Shown piece after piece: positions 6,900 through 52,197 of a stretch of 64,000 bases of DNA. Every line of letters starts with the position of its first letter. Within the stretch, counting starts at the first letter, position 1. The translations under genes and the position numbers were made by a program. The notes beneath the pieces were generated by a model, which worked only from the letters and a program-made list of their open reading frames with translations, was not told the origin of the DNA and did no database searches. Source of the stretch: Nitrospirota bacterium (lineage in GTDB: Bacteria; Nitrospirota; Thermodesulfovibrionia; Thermodesulfovibrionales; JdFR-88); NCBI GenBank assembly GCA_021825295.1, contig JAKAHV010000009.1, forward strand, positions 1-64,000. Reading direction: 5' to 3'.

Positions 6900-9204
6900 T
6901 TGGCACCTCCGGCTGCGTATCTTCAGGTCCGATCGGTATCTTGACGGTAAAGGCCGTCCCGGTCCCCGCCGCGCTCTCCACGTTTATCTCTCCACGATGC
7001 TTTTTCACGATATCATAGGCGATGCTCAGGCCGAGCCCCGTCCCTTTGCCCACCTCCTTTGTGGTAAAAAAGGGGTCGAATATCCTCGGGATGTTTTCTG
7101 ACGGTATTCCGCAGCCCGTGTCCGAGACGCGGATATAGACGTATTGCGGGTCTCGCCAGCTCTTGACCTTGATCCGCCCGCTCTTCTCTATCGCCTGGGC
7201 GGCGTTTACGAGCAGGTTTAAGAATACCTGGTTGAGCTGCCCCGGATTGCACTTCACAAGGGGCAGGCCGCCGAACTCCTTTTCAAGCTCCGCCTTGTAT
7301 TTAAGCTCGTTCCATACGATATTGATGGTGCTGGCGAGGCCCGCGTTTATGTCGGCGTATTTGAACTCGGATTCGTCCACATGGGAGAAATCCTTCAGGT
7401 TGCGGACTATCTGGCGCACGCGGTCCGCGCCGTCCAGGGACTCCGCTATCAGCGTGTCGACATCCTTTGTGACGCTGTCAATCTTCAGCAGCCGGCCGGC
7501 CTCGTTCACACGGCCAAGGGCGGCAGCCGGGTCCTGCCCCTTCGCCATCGCCCCCATCGCCTCCGCCTGGGCCTCAATATAGTCCTTCAGCCTGGAGACG
7601 TATTTGGAGAATGAATTCAGATTGCTCATCACGAACGCTATCGGATTGTTTATCTCGTGGGCCACTCCCGCCGCAAGCTGGCCTATCGAGGCCATCTTCT
7701 CCTGCTGCAGCATCTGCGACTGCGCGCTCTTCAGTTCCGAGTACGCCGTGGCCAGTTCCCCGTTGCTCAGGCCGAGCATCTGCATCATGTTGTTGAAATA
7801 TTCCCCGATCTGGTAGATGGGGTCCTTCGTGGCCTCCATGAAGACGGGGCATTCCACGCAGTTTTTTATTTTTTGGGCAAAAGCCCCCTGGACCTCGCCG
7901 CCGCAGAACGTGCCCTCCATCTGCCAGCACCTTGCGGCGCCCCGGCCGTAACAGGGGCAGCCGTTCTTCATGCACGAAAGCACCTCGTAGCATTTTGGCA
8001 GGAAGGGGTTCTCGAACCTTACCTCGAACCCCTTCCCGTCAACCACCTTCTGCATCAGGGCCGATATGCCGTCCAGGGCCGTCTCCAGTTTTTCCTTGTT
8101 CTCGATTATCAGGGCGGTCTTCTCAGCCAGTTCATAATGGGCGTTTTTCAGCTTGTTGTTGTTGATCTCGAGCAGGTGCATCATGTTGTTGAAATGCTCG
8201 CCGATCTCATAAACCGGGTCTTTCGTGGCCCCCCTGAAGACGGGGCATTCCACGCAGTTTTTTATTTTTTTGGCAAACGCCCCCTGGACCTCGCCGCCGC
8301 AGTACGTGCCCTCCTTCTGCCAGCACCTTGACGCGCCCCGGCCGTAACAGGGGCAGTCCTCCTTTTTGCACGAAAGCATCTCGTAGCACCTGGACAGATG
8401 GGGATTTTCGAACCGCACCTCAAAACCCTTGCTCTCCACCACCTGCTTGATCAGGGCCGATATGCCGTCCAGGGCGGTCTTCAGTTCTTCCCGGCTCCGG
8501 CTTATCAGTGCGTTTTTCTCCTCCAGTTCGTGGGCCTTCTTGAGGGCCGTCGAATCATAGAGGGTCAATACCCTCCCGAGGCGTTCCCCGCCGGTTTCTC
8601 TCAGGTCCCCGCCGGTTTCTCCCAGTTCATAGAAATTAAGGACAAACCATCTGCCGGTGTTTTTCTGGTGCGCCTCGATCTTGTCCGCGTGAAACGCGTC
8701 GATTCCGCTTTGATGCAGCAGGATCCAGATGTTTCTGCCGATTATCTGGGAGAAATCCTTGTCCAGGACCTTTTTGGCGGAATAATTGCACCTGCTGACC
8801 GCGTCGTCCCGGTCCAGGAGGAAGACAGCGTCTCCAATGCGGTCCATTATTATTTCCCACTCCATCCTCACCTTTTCCACCTGCCTGAAAAGGAGCATGG
8901 ATTCGCGGCTGTCTCTGACAAGCCTGCCTGATTCGGGGTCGAGGCCCGCTAGCAGGGTGATGGCCGGGGCGGCGGCCCCGTTTGGCTTATTGTCGAACGA
9001 AAGGTCGAATGATATCTCCGCGCTGTCTTTTCTGCCGGCGTCCGCCGGCTGCCCCGCCTCCCTGCGGCCCTGAAGTTCGAGGACCTCCTCGCGGCTCTTG
9101 CCGATGAGTTCCTCCGGGCTCAGGCCAAGTATTTCGGAGGCGGCAAGATTGGCGAAGACACAGCGTTTTTCCTCGTCAAAGCATAACAATCCGGATCTGA
9201 CCAT
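6892..9204 (-). CDS. PAS sensor histidine kinase with duplicated cysteine-rich modules
   Basis: 770 aa, with no transmembrane segment seen. Order: a short PAS-like start (1-60), a second PAS (~115-215), two copies of a ~110-residue cysteine-rich module (~232-342 and ~364-474), a HisKA dimer with GVAHEINNP (~513), then HATPase_c with the N box (NLLVNAAQA) and G boxes (DTGCGIP, GTGLGLS). Each cysteine module has CYE-x6-C-x4-CPCYGRG, RCWQ, GTxCGGEVQG and KNCVECPVF. This resembles the so-called two-CW arrangement seen in some sensory proteins; metal, haem or redox sensing is inference. An in-frame stop nine codons upstream and GGGAG before ATG 9204 fix the start. It is coupled to the HD-GYP regulator. 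Confidence 0.88.
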   Translation of the reverse strand: MVRSGLLCFDEEKRCVFANLAASEILGLSPEELIGKSREEVLELQGRREAGQPADAGRKDSAEISFDLSFDNKPNGAAAPAITLLAGLDPESGRLVRDSRESMLLFRQVEKVRMEWEIIMDRIGDAVFLLDRDDAVSRCNYSAKKVLDKDFSQIIGRNIWILLHQSGIDAFHADKIEAHQKNTGRWFVLNFYELGETGGDLRETGGERLGRVLTLYDSTALKKAHELEEKNALISRSREELKTALDGISALIKQVVESKGFEVRFENPHLSRCYEMLSCKKEDCPCYGRGASRCWQKEGTYCGGEVQGAFAKKIKNCVECPVFRGATKDPVYEIGEHFNNMMHLLEINNNKLKNAHYELAEKTALIIENKEKLETALDGISALMQKVVDGKGFEVRFENPFLPKCYEVLSCMKNGCPCYGRGAARCWQMEGTFCGGEVQGAFAQKIKNCVECPVFMEATKDPIYQIGEYFNNMMQMLGLSNGELATAYSELKSAQSQMLQQEKMASIGQLAAGVAHEINNPIAFVMSNLNSFSKYVSRLKDYIEAQAEAMGAMAKGQDPAAALGRVNEAGRLLKIDSVTKDVDTLIAESLDGADRVRQIVRNLKDFSHVDESEFKYADINAGLASTINIVWNELKYKAELEKEFGGLPLVKCNPGQLNQVFLNLLVNAAQAIEKSGRIKVKSWRDPQYVYIRVSDTGCGIPSENIPRIFDPFFTTKEVGKGTGLGLSIAYDIVKKHRGEINVESAAGTGTAFTVKIPIGPEDTQPEVPNA
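7781..8510 (-). repeat. Internal duplication of a cysteine-rich module in the histidine kinase
   Basis: Segments 7781-8114 and 8177-8510 are near-identical direct repeats offset by exactly 396 bp (132 codons). Long blocks match at the nucleotide level, for instance GGGCATTCCACGCAGTTTTT. This points to a fairly recent tandem duplication rather than ancient domain repetition. Confidence 0.85.
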
Positions 9205-43941: not shown

Positions 43942-44030
43942 GTTGCAAGGCCCCCTTCCCGAAGAAATAAAAACCGTCTTTTTATTTTAACGTGATTCGG
44001 GCGGGAAAAAAAGGCTCTCCGAATTTTGTA

Positions 44031-44207
44031 GAACCTATCTCAAAATCGATTCCGAAGCGAAAGAGAGAGGAAATCGTGGCAGACAAGGAGAAAAGGAAAA
44101 ATCGCCCGGAGGCGCAACAGCGTTGCGTTGAGGACGATTTTCCCTTGGCGACACCGTATGCTGCGATTTCAGCCTCTTGCAGCCGGAAGCGATTTTGAGA
44201 TAGGTTC
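44031..44207. mobile_element. MITE-like inverted-repeat element, copy 1
   Basis: 177 bp with perfect 18-bp terminal inverted repeats starting GAACCTATCTCAAAATCG. TA at 44029-44030 and 44208-44209 fits a target-site duplication. The arms stay imperfectly complementary for about 60 bp inward, so the element could fold end to end. It carries no transposase. The ends resemble those of IS5/IS427- or IS630-type elements (inference). Copy 2 is at 51935-52110 and is about 85 percent alike by eye. Confidence 0.85.
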
Positions 44208-44220
44208 TAGTGTTTCAGTT

Positions 44221-44424
44221 TGATTTGCCGGTCAATGGCGTATTGAGCGGCATGGCTTATTTTCGTGGCCGATGCCGGCGAAGCGTAGCGGCAGCATCTC
44301 CGGCTGTCTGAGTCGAAGGGGACCAGTCCCCGAAGGCGAGTTTCGGAGATGCAGTCCCGCCAAGGCGGGACAGCGGCAGAAAAGAAGCCCAAAAAAGCAA
44401 AAGCCGCCATTGACCGGCAAATCA
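44221..44424. repeat. Structured repeat with self-complementary arms, copy A
   Basis: 204 bp bounded by perfect 20-bp inverted arms (TGATTTGCCGGTCAATGGCG and its complement at 44405-44424). The core (44242-44404) contains nested hairpins: GCATCTCCG...CGGAGATGC enclosing GGGGACCAGTCCCC, and GTCCCGCCAAGGCGGGAC. The core recurs at 50885-51060 but with different arms. The remaining gap to 44515 shows nothing further. Confidence 0.75.
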
Positions 44425-44514
44425 CATTCCGCAAAAAAATCGGGGGTAGTGGTACAGTTTGTAAGGTATAGGGCCGATGGGGTTATGCGGAGGTCCAATC
44501 CCGGGCGTCTTGTC

Positions 44515-45237
44515 TTACTCGGCTGCTTTTATTACTTTTAGCGTCCTGAGCCTGGCTATGTCTTCCTGGTAGCCGTAGATATGCGCGCCAGAGCTGTAGG
44601 CGTATATCGGCCCGTTCAGGAGCCCTGTCTCGCCCGCAACATAGTTTTTAAGCAGCTCTATGCCCCCGAGGTTAGTGGGAAAACCCGCCCAGAGGTCCCA
44701 TGAGCGGAAATAACAGCTCACGGTAAGGTGCAGCTCATCGTTTACAGGTATCGCCTTGAAATCCAGAAGCCTCAAACACGGCGGGTCCAGCTTCCCGTCG
44801 TTGCCGTAGCACGTGTCATGGTCCTCGGGGTCTCCAATCTCGACTATGGTCTGATTGGTAAGAGGGGTCGTCCTGAGTATTTCTATGACCCGTTCGAGCT
44901 GCGTGCCGCCCTTGGGCATGGGATGGTGTATCCTGCTGGCGTATTTGTATGTCTCGTTTTCACTTAGAGAGGGGTCCATCAGGTAGTTGGCGAAATAGTC
45001 CTCTATGTATTCCATGGTGGTAGGGGCCGGGATATTCGATCCGGGCGGCATCGTCGGCACCATGTCCTGCGACGGGTGCTCGATGAAAACGGCGATCCCC
45101 GGATACTGAAGACGGTACTGTTCCTTCTCGAATGACCCTTTCTGGATTTTCTGGGTGTAGGAGTTGTCAAAGAGGTTATAGATAAGCTGGAACCAGGCGT
45201 CGGATATCGTCTTGGCGTTAATGCACAAAGGGTACAT
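44515..45237 (-). CDS. Thymidylate synthase-fold protein, methanogen type
   Basis: 240 aa from ATG 45237, chosen for GGGAGAG eight bases upstream. The C-terminal half carries thymidylate-synthase features: a cysteine in DPPCLRLLDFKA (~159) at the nucleophile position, then LHLTVSCYFRSWDLWAGFPTNLGG with the conserved Arg-Ser-x-Asp and Asn of the dUMP site, and YAYSSGAHIYGYQ. The overall form matches the short ThyA-like proteins of methanogenic archaea rather than E. coli ThyA. It would methylate dUMP or a related pyrimidine. No folate-domain partner adjoins. Exact substrate is inferred. Confidence 0.72.
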   Translation of the reverse strand: MYPLCINAKTISDAWFQLIYNLFDNSYTQKIQKGSFEKEQYRLQYPGIAVFIEHPSQDMVPTMPPGSNIPAPTTMEYIEDYFANYLMDPSLSENETYKYASRIHHPMPKGGTQLERVIEILRTTPLTNQTIVEIGDPEDHDTCYGNDGKLDPPCLRLLDFKAIPVNDELHLTVSCYFRSWDLWAGFPTNLGGIELLKNYVAGETGLLNGPIYAYSSGAHIYGYQEDIARLRTLKVIKAAE

Positions 45238-45358
45238 GGAAATACTCTCCCGAATTAGATTGCTGTATTTTAGCATATATGGCGCACCGCTGTTTCAGGC
45301 CCAGCCGTCGCGCTCGGCGGGAAATGGGAGGACACCTTGCCAGGCGGCCGAAGCGAGC

Positions 45359-47011
45359 CTATTCGAAGGGGGGCGTGAACTCGAATTTTTCCGAGTCGAA
45401 GAGACCTTTGTCGCTCAGTTTCAGCCCCGGTATCACCAGCAACCCCATAAATGAAAGCGTCATGAAAGGCGCCCGGAGCCCCGAGCCAAACCCCTTGGCG
45501 AGCCTGTCGATCTTCGAATAATCCCCGGCCACTTTCAGCGCGTCCTCATCGGACATCAGGCCGGCCACCGGCAGCGGCAGGACCATCGCCCCCTCATCCG
45601 AAAAAGCGGCAAGCCCACCCCTGTTTTCTATGACCGCGTTCACCGCGCCCGCCATCTCCGCATCCGAGACGCCCACGGCTATTATGTTATGGGAGTCGTG
45701 GGAAACGGAGGCGGCGATGGCCCCTTTCTTCAGGCCGAAATTTTTTATGAACGAAACGGCCGGGGGCCTGTCCTCGTAGCGGTTTATGACGGCGATTTTA
45801 AGGATGTCCCTGGCGGTGTCGGAGACGGCAAACCTGTTTGCCGCCTTCGGTTTTACCAGGAGGCTTCCGGTCACTATCTGGCCGTCCTCGGCGACTATCA
45901 CCTTCAGGCGCCGCCCGGCGATTTTCAGTGCGAAATCGGATGGCCGTTTCCTTTTTGCCCCGAAATTGTTTATGGCGCGCGCCCTGGCCGGGCGGATGAG
46001 CGCCTTGCCCGCTTCCGCCACGGGTTTCCCGTTTACGCACGTCCTTAATATGTTGAAATCCTCAAAATTGTCTATCATAACGTAATCCGCGAAATCGCCC
46101 TCCCGCAAAAGCCCCGCCTGAAGGCGGTAGTGCCTCACAGGGTTCAGGGAGGCGGCCCTGAGGACGCTCATCCTGTCTTTCCCCATGGCGATGGCCCTTT
46201 TGACGATCAGGTTTATGTGACCTTTGACGAGGTCGTCCGGGTGCAGATCGTCGGTTGCGAACATTATGGATTCCGGGTGAAGGTCGATAAGGTCTATGAG
46301 GGCGTCAAAATTCCTGGCCGCAGAGCCCTCGCGTATGAGCACCTTCATCCCCGCCCTTATTTTTTCCGCCCCCTCGGCCGCGGATGTAGTCTCGTGGTCC
46401 GTAGTGGCGCCGGCCCTGATGTATTTGCCCAGCGCCTCTCCCGAGAGCCCTGGCGCATGGCCGTCCACCGGTTTTCCATATTTTAGCGCGGCCCCTATCT
46501 TTTCCTGGATTTGCTTCTCCCCGGTTATTACGCCCGGAAAGTTCATGACCTCGCTCAGGAATCCTATGTCCTCTCTCTTAAGCAGGGCGTCCGTTTCCCC
46601 GGGCCCAAGCGCCGCGCCCGAGGTCTCGAACATCGTCGCGGGGACCGAGGACGGGGCGCCGAAACAGAATTTGAAAGGTACGGCGCCGCCGTTTTCTATC
46701 ATGTAGTCCACGCCTTCCGCGCCGAGGACGTTCGCTATCTCGTGTGGGTCCGAGACGGCCGCCACCGTGCCGTGCACAAGGGCGCGCCTTGCGAACTCCG
46801 CGGGCACGAGCATCGAGCTTTCTATGTGCACATGGGCGTCCACGAGGGGAGGGATTATGAAATTGCCGTAGCGTCCGGAGGTCTTTCTGATTCTGGCGAT
46901 CCGCCCGCCCCGTATCTCCATTTCCGCCGGATAGACGGCCCCGTTTATCACGTCCACGAGGTTTCCCGCGACGGTATTTCCTTCAAAATCACCCTGCCTG
47001 GCGGAGCGCAT
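45359..47011 (-). CDS. ade: Adenine deaminase
   Basis: 550 aa, normal for the bacterial Ade family. The amidohydrolase metal motif is LVDAHVHIESSML (~59). VSDPHEIANVLG, DGHAPGLSGEAL, ATTDHETTSAAE and MFATDDLHPDD follow the family order, and SVSHDSHNIIAVG lies in the C-terminal domain. It converts adenine to hypoxanthine with Fe or Mn. The Shine-Dalgarno is weak (GAAAGAAAG). Monocistronic, 121 bp upstream of the thymidylate-synthase-like gene. Confidence 0.95.
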   Translation of the reverse strand: MRSARQGDFEGNTVAGNLVDVINGAVYPAEMEIRGGRIARIRKTSGRYGNFIIPPLVDAHVHIESSMLVPAEFARRALVHGTVAAVSDPHEIANVLGAEGVDYMIENGGAVPFKFCFGAPSSVPATMFETSGAALGPGETDALLKREDIGFLSEVMNFPGVITGEKQIQEKIGAALKYGKPVDGHAPGLSGEALGKYIRAGATTDHETTSAAEGAEKIRAGMKVLIREGSAARNFDALIDLIDLHPESIMFATDDLHPDDLVKGHINLIVKRAIAMGKDRMSVLRAASLNPVRHYRLQAGLLREGDFADYVMIDNFEDFNILRTCVNGKPVAEAGKALIRPARARAINNFGAKRKRPSDFALKIAGRRLKVIVAEDGQIVTGSLLVKPKAANRFAVSDTARDILKIAVINRYEDRPPAVSFIKNFGLKKGAIAASVSHDSHNIIAVGVSDAEMAGAVNAVIENRGGLAAFSDEGAMVLPLPVAGLMSDEDALKVAGDYSKIDRLAKGFGSGLRAPFMTLSFMGLLVIPGLKLSDKGLFDSEKFEFTPPFE

Positions 47012-47134
47012 GATCGTCTGCTTTCTTTCAGAAATTCCGGAACCTTGCCTCTTCCAGTGCCTGCAAGACGGCAGGATTATTGTAAAAATTTATCAGCCCG
47101 ATTGGCAACAGGTAAATTCCAGGCCCATTCCAGG

Positions 47135-48256
47135 CTAGGCGCCGATCCTAAGCACGGGCTTTATCGTCTTTCCGCTGCGCGCATCCCGGATGGCGCGGTT
47201 GATATCGCGGAAGCCGTAGAACCTGATCAGGCGGTCGAAAGGGAACAGTCCCCTCCGGTATAACCGGATGAGTTTTGGGATGAATTCCTGCGGCACGGAG
47301 TCGCCCTGTATGATGCCGATGCTCTTTCGCCCTCCGGGCAGGGCGCCGCTTGCCCCGGGGCTTGCGATGAGCGCCACCGTGCCATCCGGCTTTAATACGT
47401 CGATGGCCATGCGGTGTATCACGGGGTCCCCTGTTATCTCCAGCGAGTAATCCACGCCTCCGCTGCTGATGCCGTCAACGCGGGAAAGGACGTCTTCCCG
47501 TCTGCTGTCTATCACATCCGTTGCGCCAAGCTCCAGGGCCAGTTTCAGACGCGCCGGGTTGATGTCCACGCCTATTACAGGGGTACCCCCCACGATTCGG
47601 GCGGCCATCACCGCGGCCAGGCCGACCGCTCCCGTGCCGAATACGGCCACGCTTTGCCCCTTCAGGACATGAAGCGAGTTCATCACCGTCCCCGCACCGG
47701 TCTGTATGCCGCAGCCCAAAGGGGCCAGAAGCTCCAGGAGATTATCCATTGGCACCTTTACGATATTGCGTCTTGTGGCCAGTACATGGGTGGCGAAGGA
47801 GGACTGGCCGAAGAAGTGCCCCCGCACGCCGCTTCGGTGCAGGGCGTTGCTGCCGTCCGGCCGCTGGAAACCGAAGTTCAGGTCCCAGAAACGTTCGCAG
47901 CCGGCGGGATGCCCCCTGCGGCATTCGCCGCAGAGGCCGCAGGACTGATAGGACAGGACCACGTGGTCGCCGGGCTTTACGCCCCTCACGCCTTTTCCCG
48001 TCCGTTCCACTACACCTGCGCCTTCATGCCCGAGGACCACGGGCCCGTCCGCGCCGTCCATAAAGTCTATATCCGTATGGCAGATGCCGCTGGCCGCAAT
48101 GCGCACCAGCGCTTCATCGTCGCGGGGGCCTTCGAGTTCCAGGGTCTCGATTTTTAGCGGCCCGCCCGGCCTGCGGAGAACGGCCGCCCTGATCTTCAGT
48201 ATCTGCGCCCCGGAAGTCCCTGCCGTTTTCCTTTTTGTTTCCTTCGCTTTTCTCAT
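47135..48256 (-). CDS. Zinc-dependent medium-chain alcohol dehydrogenase
   Basis: 373 aa. A basic ~20-residue tail precedes the GroES-like domain. Catalytic zinc ligands are in SGICHTDIDF and LGHEGAGVVE, and LLAPLGCGIQTGAG supplies the third. The structural zinc is CGLCGECRRGHPAGC. The NAD fold has VFGTGAVGLAAVMAA. The pattern is closest to aryl/benzyl alcohol dehydrogenases and class III-like enzymes; the substrate is not determined. AAGGG lies 12 bases before the ATG. It is 123 bp from ade, with no shared pathway evident. Confidence 0.9.
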   Translation of the reverse strand: MRKAKETKRKTAGTSGAQILKIRAAVLRRPGGPLKIETLELEGPRDDEALVRIAASGICHTDIDFMDGADGPVVLGHEGAGVVERTGKGVRGVKPGDHVVLSYQSCGLCGECRRGHPAGCERFWDLNFGFQRPDGSNALHRSGVRGHFFGQSSFATHVLATRRNIVKVPMDNLLELLAPLGCGIQTGAGTVMNSLHVLKGQSVAVFGTGAVGLAAVMAARIVGGTPVIGVDINPARLKLALELGATDVIDSRREDVLSRVDGISSGGVDYSLEITGDPVIHRMAIDVLKPDGTVALIASPGASGALPGGRKSIGIIQGDSVPQEFIPKLIRLYRRGLFPFDRLIRFYGFRDINRAIRDARSGKTIKPVLRIGA

Positions 48257-48361
48257 ATCTTTTAAGGCCCTTCTGAAATGGCTATGACCATTTTAGCACC
48301 CGGACGTCCGGATGGTAAGAAGCAATTTTGGGACAGGTTCTATAATGTAATCAGGAGTCAT

Positions 48362-48880
48362 ATGGAGACATTTCAAAGGGAATTGAAATTTTACCGCATG
48401 CCGGGCGGGGCGTTCCGGCTGGCCGCCTCGCAGCTTCTGCCGGTGGCGCCGCCACGGGCGTTTTCTTTTTTTGAAGCCCCCGGAAACCTTGCCCGCATAA
48501 CCCCGCCGTGGCTGGAGTTCAGGCTGCTGGATGATGGCGGCGGCCGCGCTTTCGAGGGGGTGGAGTTCAGGTACACGATAAGATGGCTGGGGCTGCGCAT
48601 CCCGTGGCGAAGCCGCATCGTGAATTATCATCCGCCTGTGGAGTTCACCGATATACAGGTGATCGGGCCGTACCGTGAGTGGGTGCACCTTCATACGTTT
48701 CGTCCGGCGCCGGGAGGGACCCTCATGAAGGACCGTGTGGACTACAGGCTGCCAATGGGCCTGGCCGGAAGGCTGTTGCATATATGGATGGTGGAGAGCC
48801 AGTTGAGGGACATCTTTACCTACCGGGCGGAGCGGATTTGCGAGTGGGCCGCGTCCATTCACGAGGCGGAAAACAGGTGA
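48362..48880 (+). CDS. SRPBCC-superfamily protein (coenzyme Q-binding / cyclase-like)
   Basis: 172 aa from ATG 48362, selected because AGGAG lies five bases upstream; the longer frame from 48278 adds an unconserved tail. The fold signature is an initial helix-grip strand (ASQLLPVAPPRAFSFF), PWLEFRLLD, FRYTIRWLGLRIPWRSRIVNY and WVHLHTFRPAPGGTLMKDRVDY. This resembles bacterial SRPBCC proteins often linked with nucleotide-sugar epimerase homologues. They bind hydrophobic ligands; the ligand is unknown. TATAAT at 48341-48346 may be its promoter. Confidence 0.78.
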   Translation: METFQRELKFYRMPGGAFRLAASQLLPVAPPRAFSFFEAPGNLARITPPWLEFRLLDDGGGRAFEGVEFRYTIRWLGLRIPWRSRIVNYHPPVEFTDIQVIGPYREWVHLHTFRPAPGGTLMKDRVDYRLPMGLAGRLLHIWMVESQLRDIFTYRAERICEWAASIHEAENR

Positions 48881-48909
48881 TATCATTTAATCAGGAAGGA
48901 GATAATCAT

Positions 48910-49425
48910 ATGAGAAGATTTCGCCTCGTGTTTCTGCCGGCAGTGATGGCCCTTCTTTTGCCGGTTTTTTCACCCGCGCGTGGGGGTGCGGCCGAAGTGG
49001 GAATAGGGATATACGTGTCGCCTCCGCCCTATGCGTTTCCCGCGCCGCCAGCGGTGGTCCTGATACCGGGCACCTATTACGTCTATTACGTCCCAGGCGT
49101 GGATTTTGAGATATTGTTTTATCATGGTTACTGGTGGCGTCCCTGGCATCACCGCTGGTACCGTGCCCGCTACTATAACGGGCCGTGGTATTACGACTCG
49201 CGTCCGCCGCGTCCCCTGATAGCCCTTCCGCCGCGTTACCGCCGGGTCCCGCCCCGTTACCGGATACCCTACCCGGACTTAAGGAGAAACTGGAGGGCGT
49301 GGGAGAGGGACCGGTATTGGGACAGGCACAGGCAATGGCCTGAAAGGGGCCCGGAAGGCCGTGGAGGAAGGGGCCCCGGAATGGGCGGTGGAATGGGCGG
49401 CGGAATGGGCCGGGGACGCCGTTAG
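48910..49425 (+). CDS. Exported Tyr/Pro-rich protein with Gly/Met tail
   Basis: 171 aa from ATG 48910 with GAAGGAG upstream. Signal peptide MRRFRLVFLPAVMALLLPV, cut near GGAAE. Residues ~35-110 match the protein at 4016-4576: IPGTYYVYYVPGVDF, LFYHGYWWRPW, YRARYYNGPW, then a shared RNWRAWERDRYWDR. The C-terminus differs: here it is GRGPGMGGGMGGGMG rather than Asp/His repeats. A duplicate pair that has diverged at the tail. Function unknown; periplasmic or surface location inferred. It is 29 bp after the SRPBCC gene. Confidence 0.72.
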   Translation: MRRFRLVFLPAVMALLLPVFSPARGGAAEVGIGIYVSPPPYAFPAPPAVVLIPGTYYVYYVPGVDFEILFYHGYWWRPWHHRWYRARYYNGPWYYDSRPPRPLIALPPRYRRVPPRYRIPYPDLRRNWRAWERDRYWDRHRQWPERGPEGRGGRGPGMGGGMGGGMGRGRR

Positions 49426-49471
49426 GGCAAATCCACTTTAAAACCCCCAGGGGGCTTCGAGGAGGAGAAAG

Positions 49472-49873
49472 ATGACGGACCTTAAGGCAAAGGACATAAT
49501 GTCAAGGCCGGTTGTATCGGCCCGGAAAAACGCATCGGCGCGCGACATCGCGATGCAGATATTGTCCGGCCTGTACAGCGGAATGCCGGTTACAGACGAC
49601 CAGGGAAAGGTATTGGGGGTGGTGACGGAATTCGATCTCTTGAACCGGATACGTGAAGGAAAGGAACTGGTGAAGCTGACGGCGGACGATGTCATGGCCC
49701 AGCCCCCAATAACGGTGGACGTCAACACCCCCGTGGACGAAGTGCTGAAAATAATGACCGAACACAATATCATCAGGGTGCCGGTTACGGAGGAAGGGCA
49801 ACTGGTGGGCATTATCGCGCGGTGCGATATACTGAGGGCCTTCATAGAGCCGGAATTCGCCACCTACATGTAG
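49472..49873 (+). CDS. Tandem CBS-domain protein (short)
   Basis: 133 aa with two CBS domains (~5-60: DIMSRPVVSARKNASARDIA, GMPVTDDQGKVLGVVTEFDL; ~72-128: VMAQPPITVDVNTPVDEVL, RVPVTEEGQLVGIIARCDIL). Likely an adenine-nucleotide sensor acting on an unknown partner. GGAGGAG precedes the ATG. The stop lies 59 bp from the convergent pentapeptide gene. Confidence 0.9.
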   Translation: MTDLKAKDIMSRPVVSARKNASARDIAMQILSGLYSGMPVTDDQGKVLGVVTEFDLLNRIREGKELVKLTADDVMAQPPITVDVNTPVDEVLKIMTEHNIIRVPVTEEGQLVGIIARCDILRAFIEPEFATYM

Positions 49874-49885
49874 GTTTTTTAAAGA

Positions 49886-49950
49886 GGACGCCGGGGATAA
49901 CGGCAAGGCCCGCGGGGGACACGGCCCCGGCTTTATTGGCCCGGCGTCTT
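49886..49950. terminator. Bidirectional hairpin between convergent genes
   Basis: GGACGCCGGG (from 49886) pairs with CCCGGCGTCT (to 49950) across a GC-rich loop that can also pair internally (GCCGGGG with CCCCGGC). It overlaps the last codons of the leftward pentapeptide gene. A T-run follows only on the minus side (49874-49882). Confidence 0.5.
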
Positions 49951-50610
49951 CCGGACTTTTACCCTGCCCATGTCCGCCCCCTCGAATCTTGCCCCGGCCA
50001 GGTCGGCGCCTTCGAGGTTCGCCGCGACCAGGCAGCCGTTATAAAATGCGCTTCCGCGGAGGTTTGCGCCCGAGAGCACCGCGGCGGTGAAATCCGCCCT
50101 GGTGAACTCGCAGTTTTCAAGCGCGGCCCCTGTAAAGTCCGTCCTAACGAGGCTTGCGCCGTAGGCGTTCGCTCCGGATAATCTCGCGGACTTGAAGTCG
50201 CCCGCGCCGCAGTCCGTCTGCCTCAGGTCGGCCCCCGTGAGGTCCGCCCCTGCGGCGCGCACCGCGGTCATGTTTGCAAGATGCAGTTTGGCCGCCCTGA
50301 GATCCGCGCCGGCGAGGTCGGCGCCAGGCATGTGGCAATGGGTGAGGTCCGCGCCCTCCAGCACGGCCTCCCTCAGTATCGCCCCGGTCAGATTGCAGCC
50401 GTTTAGGTTGGCCCCCGAAAGGTCGGCCCCCGTGAAATCGCATCCAGCCAGGTTTGAGCTTTCAAAATTTACGCGCTTCAGAACGGCCCCGCGGAAACTC
50501 ATCGCCGCCAGGGTAAGCCCGCTTAAGTCCGCATCCGATATGTCGTAGCCGTCCGCGGGCCTGTTTTCGGAGGCCAGATAGAGCACTTCCGGCCGGTATA
50601 TCCTGTCCAT
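49933..50610 (-). CDS. Pentapeptide-repeat protein
   Basis: 225 aa, nearly all A(D/N)LxX pentapeptides from ~residue 25 onward, for example DLSGANLNGCNLTGAIL, ADLAGADLRAAKL and ADFTAAVLSGANLRGS. This predicts a right-handed quadrilateral beta-helix of about eight coils. Such proteins can mimic DNA or act as binding platforms; no specific role is visible. There is no signal peptide. TATAAT ends six bases before ATG 50610 with no ribosome site, so a leaderless transcript is predicted. Confidence 0.9.
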   Translation of the reverse strand: MDRIYRPEVLYLASENRPADGYDISDADLSGLTLAAMSFRGAVLKRVNFESSNLAGCDFTGADLSGANLNGCNLTGAILREAVLEGADLTHCHMPGADLAGADLRAAKLHLANMTAVRAAGADLTGADLRQTDCGAGDFKSARLSGANAYGASLVRTDFTGAALENCEFTRADFTAAVLSGANLRGSAFYNGCLVAANLEGADLAGARFEGADMGRVKVRKTPGQ

Positions 50611-50616
50611 GGGTTA

Positions 50617-50622
50617 ATTATA
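50617..50622 (-). promoter_or_regulatory. -10 hexamer TATAAT, start codon 6 nt downstream (pentapeptide gene)
   Basis: Perfect TATAAT on the minus strand, six bases before ATG 50610. No -35 match and no Shine-Dalgarno. Predicted leaderless start. Confidence 0.5.
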
Positions 50623-50656
50623 TATCCACTTGGGGCGGCTTGCGCTTCAAAAAATC

Positions 50657-51100
50657 GGCAGTGCATCAGTTTGGCAATGCAGAGCGTGGCAGAAGGCGGA
50701 TGGCAGTATGGCTCGCATCATTCTCGGCAGCCGTCCATGGCTGCCTCCGAGGCTTTTGCCTGCCGCCGCCATCCGGGCGGCGGCTTCGGCAAAAAAAACC
50801 GCTCGCATGCCCCCATCCGCCTTCTGTCTTACACGCGCTTCTCTTATACCCGTTTGTTTGGAGTCGCCGGGCGATAAAAAACGGATTGAGCGGCATGGCT
50901 TTTTTTCGTAGCCGATGCCGGTGAAGCGTAGCGGTCGCATCTCCGGCTGTCTGAGCCGAAGGGGGCCAGCCCCAAGGGACCAGTCCCCGAAGGCGAGTTC
51001 CGGAGATGCGGCGGAGCGAGGCCATGCAGCGGCAGAACAAAAAGCCCCAAAAAGCGAAAGACGTTTTCTTCGCCCGGCTATGTCAAACTGATGCGCTACC
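50657..51100. repeat. Composite palindromic region between divergent genes
   Basis: Outer imperfect inverted repeats (50657-50676 GGCAGTGCATCAGTTTGGCA; complement at 51081-51100, 16 of 20) enclose two inner units. The first is 50691-50825, bounded by AGAAGGCGGATGG and CCATCCGCCTTCT, with inner hairpins CCGCCGCCATCCGGGCGGCGG-like. The second is the structured repeat at 50866-51078. No gene in the 50611-51186 gap can be supported. Confidence 0.65.
50866..51078. repeat. Structured repeat with self-complementary arms, copy B
   Basis: Core 50885-51060 matches copy A (44242-44404), including AGCGGCATGGCTT, GAAGCGTAGCGG and the GCATCTCCGG/CCGGAGATGC stem. The arms are unrelated in sequence to copy A: GCCGGGCGATAAAAAACG here, pairing with CGTTTTCTTCGCCCGGC apart from one bulge. 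An extra small hairpin (GGGGCCAGCCCC) next to GGGACCAGTCCC looks like a duplicated, compensated stem. Confidence 0.75.
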
Positions 51101-51186
51101 AAAAAATCATTCGCATGGATTTTATTATTTTAAGCGGCCTGTCTGATAATATATGAGCCGCCAATCGGATTTGAAGGGGGACAAGA

Positions 51187-51552: not shown

Positions 51553-51934
51553 GGACTGACGAGGGGAAAAGCGCGCTTGGGCCTTCTTCTTTTTTTGTGT
51601 TTTTTTGTTCAAATCAAAAGTCACAACCAACAGTTTTTAAATGATTTTTTTTAGTCAAGCGTTCAACATGTTCAAATGAGCGCCCCGTGTTTTGCAAGTC
51701 CCGGGACAAGATCAAACGCATCCGGGGCGATCTCCCGAATCCCCCGTTTGCGGGATGATGCGGCGAATTTCGTTTTCAATGAACAACGCCCAGCCGGGCC
51801 TATCATAATACGCGGGGCCATGAGATTTTCCAATAAAGTAGTTTGCATAAACCAATTTAAAAAAGTGGCCTTCAGCCGTGAATGTTCAGGTTTACACACT
51901 TTCTCAAGTCCCCCAGAGTTTCGATTTTTGAGTA
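51553..51934. other. AT-rich intergenic DNA before MITE copy 2
   Basis: Contains T-rich tracts (51588-51610, 51652-51659). Overlapping open frames occur on both strands at 51672-51960, but none has a ribosome site, a recognisable family or coding-like composition. The stretch looks like decayed DNA. Confidence 0.4.
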
Positions 51935-52110
51935 GAACCTGTCTCAAAATTGATTCTTAAGCGAAAGAGGGAGGAAATCGTGGCAGACAAGGAGGAAAAG
52001 GGAAATCGCCCGGAGGTGCAGCAGCGCTGCGTTGAGAACGGTTTCTCTTTTGCGACACCGTATGACGCGATTTCAGCCTCTTGCAGCAGAAGCAATTTTG
52101 AGATAGGTTC
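51935..52110. mobile_element. MITE-like inverted-repeat element, copy 2
   Basis: 176 bp, with ends GAACCTGTCTCAAAATTG and CAATTTTGAGATAGGTTC, one mismatch apart. Flanked by TA at 51933-51934 and 52111-52112. The interior matches copy 1 at 44031-44207, including GGAAATCGTGGCAGACAAGG. No transposase. Confidence 0.85.
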
Positions 52111-52197
52111 TAATCATTTACCCCTTCTGCCTTTCATTTCTGAGTCAATGCCACGGATGCAAGAGTATGCCCTGAACTCTACGGTCTTTAAATCTGT

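Follow-up and report, generated by a model that had tools for sequence, protein, structure and literature searches.

A mobile, non-coding hairpin element with a conserved fold in Thermodesulfovibrionales and in several other phyla

The attC sites of integron cassettes are conserved in their fold rather than in their sequence, form imperfect hairpins and have one preferred strand. REP sequences and REPINs are likewise hairpins, dispersed between genes and not coding for protein, and according to PMC6006769 and PMC8266576 it is the folded single-stranded DNA that is recognised. The element described here occurs twice in the window, the 64,000-nucleotide stretch that was analysed (positions 1 to 64,000 of contig JAKAHV010000009.1 from a Nitrospirota bacterium), and by analogy would seem to work most like REP or attC hairpins, yet it fails defining features of both. 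With attC sites it shares fold-level conservation, an imperfect hairpin and a single preferred strand; it is, however, dispersed rather than placed in a cassette array, and many genomes rich in its copies have no integron integrase. Membership of the attC class was ruled out, as RYYYAAC and GTTRRRY boxes were present at the ends of 0/101 and 0/18 copies. REP sequences and REPINs, which are 20-40 bp long according to PMC3733652, resemble it as dispersed intergenic hairpins, but the present element measures about 200 nt and has several conserved internal loops. They are moved by TnpA-REP (RAYT) Y1 transposases, whereas Y1 transposases show no association with this element (38/61 genomes with the element against 77/116 others, p=0.62). 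The structured RNAs of Rfam offer a further comparison: covariation and conserved internal loops are common to both, but wobble pairs are unusually rare in the element, and searches against 4227 families, run at the gathering threshold and with a permissive one for copy 2, covered the window, copy 2 and 17 loci from other groups and returned only a tRNA.

The two loci are clearly related, as a sequence-only reading of this DNA had proposed for their cores: within the window, 44239-44406 (copy 1) and 50882-51063 (copy 2) align at 79% identity (E=8e-42). The same reading had regarded the outer arms as unrelated; once the copies are oriented and aligned, however, GCCGGTCAAT..GGCG and GCCGGGCGATaaaaaaCGG fall together as variants of a single GCCGGGCRAT..GGCG arm. 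Each arm does pair with its own partner, as had been noted, and in copy 1 the pairing is perfect over 20 bp. The small inner stem that had been taken for a compensated difference between the copies is in reality a difference in unit number, since the inner palindrome is a single unit in copy 1 but is doubled in tandem in copy 2, as GGGGCCAGCCCC and GGGACCAGTCCC. The very different appearance of copy 2 on its left is explained by a further hairpin module in the left half of the surrounding unit. The features of the two loci are as follows.

44206-44223, + strand: left terminal repeat of copy 1, diverged, TCTAGTGTTTCAGTTTGA, with 2-3 mismatches to GGTAGTGCNTCAGTTTGA.
44221-44240, + strand: left arm of copy 1, TGATTTGCCGGTCAATGGCG, 100% complementary to 44405-44424.
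44242-44404, + strand: core of copy 1, a rod hairpin with conserved internal loops (model R1, alignment and fold).
44405-44424, + strand: right arm of copy 1, CGCCATTGACCGGCAAATCA, complementary to the left arm.
50649-50656, no strand assigned: left target-site duplication, AAAAAATC.
50657-50674, + strand: IS1-type terminal repeat at the left end of the copy 2 unit, GGCAGTGCATCAGTTTGG.
About 50690-50830, no strand assigned: extra hairpin module, CAGAAGGCGGATGG...CCATCCGCCTTCTG (inverted repeat 50690-50710 / 50806-50826, and fold).
50865-50884, + strand: left inner arm of copy 2, CGCCGGGCGATAAAAAACGG (inverted repeat and alignment).
50885-51060, + strand: core of copy 2, a rod hairpin whose tip bears two inner palindromes in tandem (model R1 and fold).
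51061-51084, + strand: right inner arm of copy 2, ACGTTTTCTTCGCCCGGCTATGTC (inverted repeat and alignment).
51083-51100, - strand: IS1-type terminal repeat at the right end of the copy 2 unit, reading TCAAACTGATGCGCTACC on the + strand.
51101-51108, no strand assigned: right target-site duplication, AAAAAATC.

A matching right end for the terminal repeat of copy 1 was not found and is either lost or unrecognisable. The covariance model R1, built on 16 copies of the core from f1, the family of the host, matched both loci in a search of the host's own genome, copy 1 at 44239-44403 (E=1.3e-29) and copy 2 at 50882-51060 (E=1e-39). The core of copy 1 carries an extra short palindrome, AGTCCCGCCAAGGCGGGACAG, at 44351-44374, where other copies have CGGAGCGAGGCCATGCAG, and the same palindrome is seen within other hairpin repeats of the genome. 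Further repeats are present in the window. Members of a second palindromic family, about 190 bp long with TAGAACCTATCTCAAAATCG / CGATTTTGAGATAGGTTCTA termini, lie at 44029-44209 and 51922-52112 (86% identity), one of them directly adjoining copy 1, and five more loci of the genome hold copies. Direct repeats at 7773-8133 and 8169-8529 are 84% identical over 361 bp, and the repeats at 990-1729 form an array whose period is about 141 bp.

Copy 2 is part of a larger unit of 444 bp (50657-51100) that is bounded by 18-bp terminal repeats and flanked on both sides by a perfect 8-bp target duplication. Ends of the GGTAGTGCATCAGTTTGR type occur at 50 sites in the genome (<=2 mismatches) against 2 control sites, and form the terminus of most copies of the hairpin there and also of other repeats. 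Perfect 8-bp duplications accompany 6 of about 15 terminal-repeat units, copy 2 among them, where a match of >=7/8 would be expected by chance in about 0.3% of units. Full elements with GGTAGTG...TCAGTTTG ends and 8-bp duplications are found in a congener (G002) and in a member of another family of the same order (G023), and encode an IS1-like transposase; the G002 proteins have IS1 as their best NCBIfam match (E 3e-16 and 4.5e-15), below the curated cut-off, and their DDE_Tnp_IS1 score is just under that of Pfam. No match to an IS1-like transposase was obtained in the host's own draft genome (2.89 Mb, 91% complete). In this genus the outer unit appears to behave as an IS1-type MITE, with which it shares its terminal repeats, common also to the full IS1-like elements, and its 8-bp duplications. 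It differs from such a MITE in that the IS1-type ends are clear only in this genus's copies, and not in all of them, and in that the inner fold of the hairpin is conserved far beyond these ends. The hairpin would also travel here as cargo of miniature elements, copy 2 being one, that are presumably made by a transposase of the IS1 family; outside this genus the ends of the element are not fixed. The module at 50690-50830 recurs in other units with IS1-type ends, at four further loci.

Arms and core together form a single rod hairpin of about 200 nt, and a single strand of copy 1 folds with a z of -7.7 relative to shuffles. The top strand is predicted to begin with the outer arms and to continue in stems split by internal loops that are rich in purines (GAGCG/AGCGAAA; GCGAA/GAG with AGCGGA; CTGTYTGA/GAGTTT) and whose positions are conserved better than any others across families. 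On inspection, the register of the CTGTYTGA/GAGTTT loop does not fit a canonical kink-turn. When copies were collected and their pairs tested, as the sequence-only reading had suggested, 34/36 core pairs were found to have changed on both sides among 101 sequences from other families, none of which had been used in building the model. Compensated cells numbered 643 against 170 +/- 15 in shuffled alignments, and 93% of cells were paired against 75% after shuffling and 33-42% with the partners slid, figures that lean towards structure, the alignment being fitted to the model and the shuffles ignoring relatedness. Given the effect size and the slid controls, a chance origin of the covariation is implausible. 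The arms provide a less biased test of pairing because they lie outside the model: in other families an arm pairs better with its own partner than with a swapped one in 96% of comparisons (mean -21.7 against -10.0 kcal/mol), and in the host's genome, where arms are largely shared among copies, in 73%. Changes in the stems would be tolerated if the partner changes too, while the loops would be held by recognition.

The family is represented by 18 near-full copies in the host's own genome. Full-length matches to the model were obtained in 61/177 genomes of the order Thermodesulfovibrionales, in 36 genera, and the model is specific, since in a phylum-wide sample 40 of the 43 genomes with matches belong to this same order. 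An exact 25-base stretch of the f1 core had no match in GTDB, because the letters of the stems vary, and a pattern centred on the loops succeeded where it failed, matching at least 119 stretches where about 0.03 would be expected by chance in the collection searched (by arithmetic from information content). Among these matches are Desulfobacterota, Betaproteobacteria and Acidithiobacillus; Bacillota contribute a few and Armatimonadetes a single one. When 80 loci were searched with the model, it gave 66 matches, several of which were partial or weak. Viral contigs gave no match, and neither did plasmids when queried with one betaproteobacterial copy. No description of the sequence or family was found among the openly accessible papers searched. 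The element, mobile and non-coding, is dispersed over dozens of related bacterial genomes and occurs in several phyla besides.

The sequence-only reading had likened the compensated differences to covariation in a structured RNA; the covariation is strongly supported, but the RNA nature fares less well. Compensated pairs across diverse copies are what such an RNA would display, and a DNA hairpin would give the same. In 99/101 copies the top strand folds more stably than the complementary one, and among clean pairs G-T (37/2305, about 2%; 1.6%) exceeds A-C (11); on both grounds one strand is likely to be the folded form, and the standing of a symmetric cruciform is lowered accordingly. This strand-specific stability and wobble excess, with the strong covariation and the conserved internal loops, would also be expected of a structured RNA that acts as a transcript, be it a regulator, a processing signal or something guide-like, and is spread by mobile elements. 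G-T pairs are, however, scarce beside those in tRNAs of the same loci (31/485, a count that ARAGORN may tilt towards standard pairs). Where the neighbouring genes are co-oriented, the folded strand lies antisense to them in 37 cases and sense in 12 (p=5e-4, with genes called mechanically as the longest ORF). A second, partly overlapping set points in the same direction, with 19 to 5 at moderate GC and 23 to 12 in total. The genes on both sides are often only 20-60 bp away, which leaves little room for a promoter, and Rfam holds no match. The low G-T content and the antisense bias thus favour folded single-stranded DNA over transcribed RNA as the active molecule, and a functional transcript, the main rival, is considered rather unlikely.

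For two copies in the genome labelled G024, sister species lack the element, and at the empty sites both the arms and any palindrome are missing (the empty site of one locus, L177, was excluded for poor alignment); arms and core would therefore have arrived together. No clear target duplication was seen at these sites. The whole hairpin was probably gained as a unit at both, clean loss in 3 + 2 relatives being less likely. The other possibility raised by the sequence-only reading, insertion of a mobile core into the loops of palindromes already in place, fails at these two resolved sites. In its favour stands one core-less terminal-repeat unit of the host's genome (C4:43033-43303), which has an uninterrupted palindrome and a perfect duplication, but the core is flanked by AGCG repeats, and deletion between them would explain this product as well as insertion does; insertion of the core alone is rated highly improbable. 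An ordinary palindromic MITE with an unselected fold, its arms and stems kept matched by template switching in palindromes during replication, would account for the many arm alleles, for the varying perfection of the palindrome among copies and for the expansion of short palindromes and tandem units in the loops, and ends and duplications of the MITE type are real in this genus. Such switching would erase the unpaired loops as well, yet these are better conserved across families than any other positions; it also leaves the strand-specific stability unexplained and does not accommodate a fold conserved so far beyond the IS1-type ends, and is judged improbable.

The best explanation, and one held to be probable if only modestly so, is that both loci are copies of one mobile non-coding element that is recognised and moved as a folded strand, most likely of single-stranded DNA. 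Such DNA would become exposed in replication or transfer and would be recognised and moved by a trans-acting enzyme, by analogy with the recognition of REP and attC hairpins. No mobilising enzyme for the hairpin itself was found among the three kinds tested, namely Y1 transposase, reverse transcriptase and integron integrase, none of which has a convincing association with the element. Reverse transcriptase shows none among the 61 and 116 genomes of the order with and without it (p=0.52). Integron integrase shows a weak one (p=0.016, by a statistic that ignores descent) and is absent from 35/61 genomes with the element, including five that are rich in copies. As separate observations, another repeat is inserted within the stem of the element at three loci of a sister species (G001), and at two loci of G024 the arms are flanked on the outside by more inverted repeats, as if hairpins were nested in larger palindromes.

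It is possible, and is put forward tentatively, that these repeats constitute an undescribed family, spanning phyla, of mobile single-stranded DNA (or RNA) rods that are recognised by structure through their loops and served by an enzyme system distinct from those of REP/RAYT and integrons. The case shows how an unrelated insertion sequence can take up an inner hairpin as its cargo. A fold that persists across phyla while its sequence does not implies that some protein, not yet named, recognises it. The covariance model, together with over a hundred natural stem variants, offers a ready means to find that protein and a way to test between folded single-stranded DNA and RNA as the active form.
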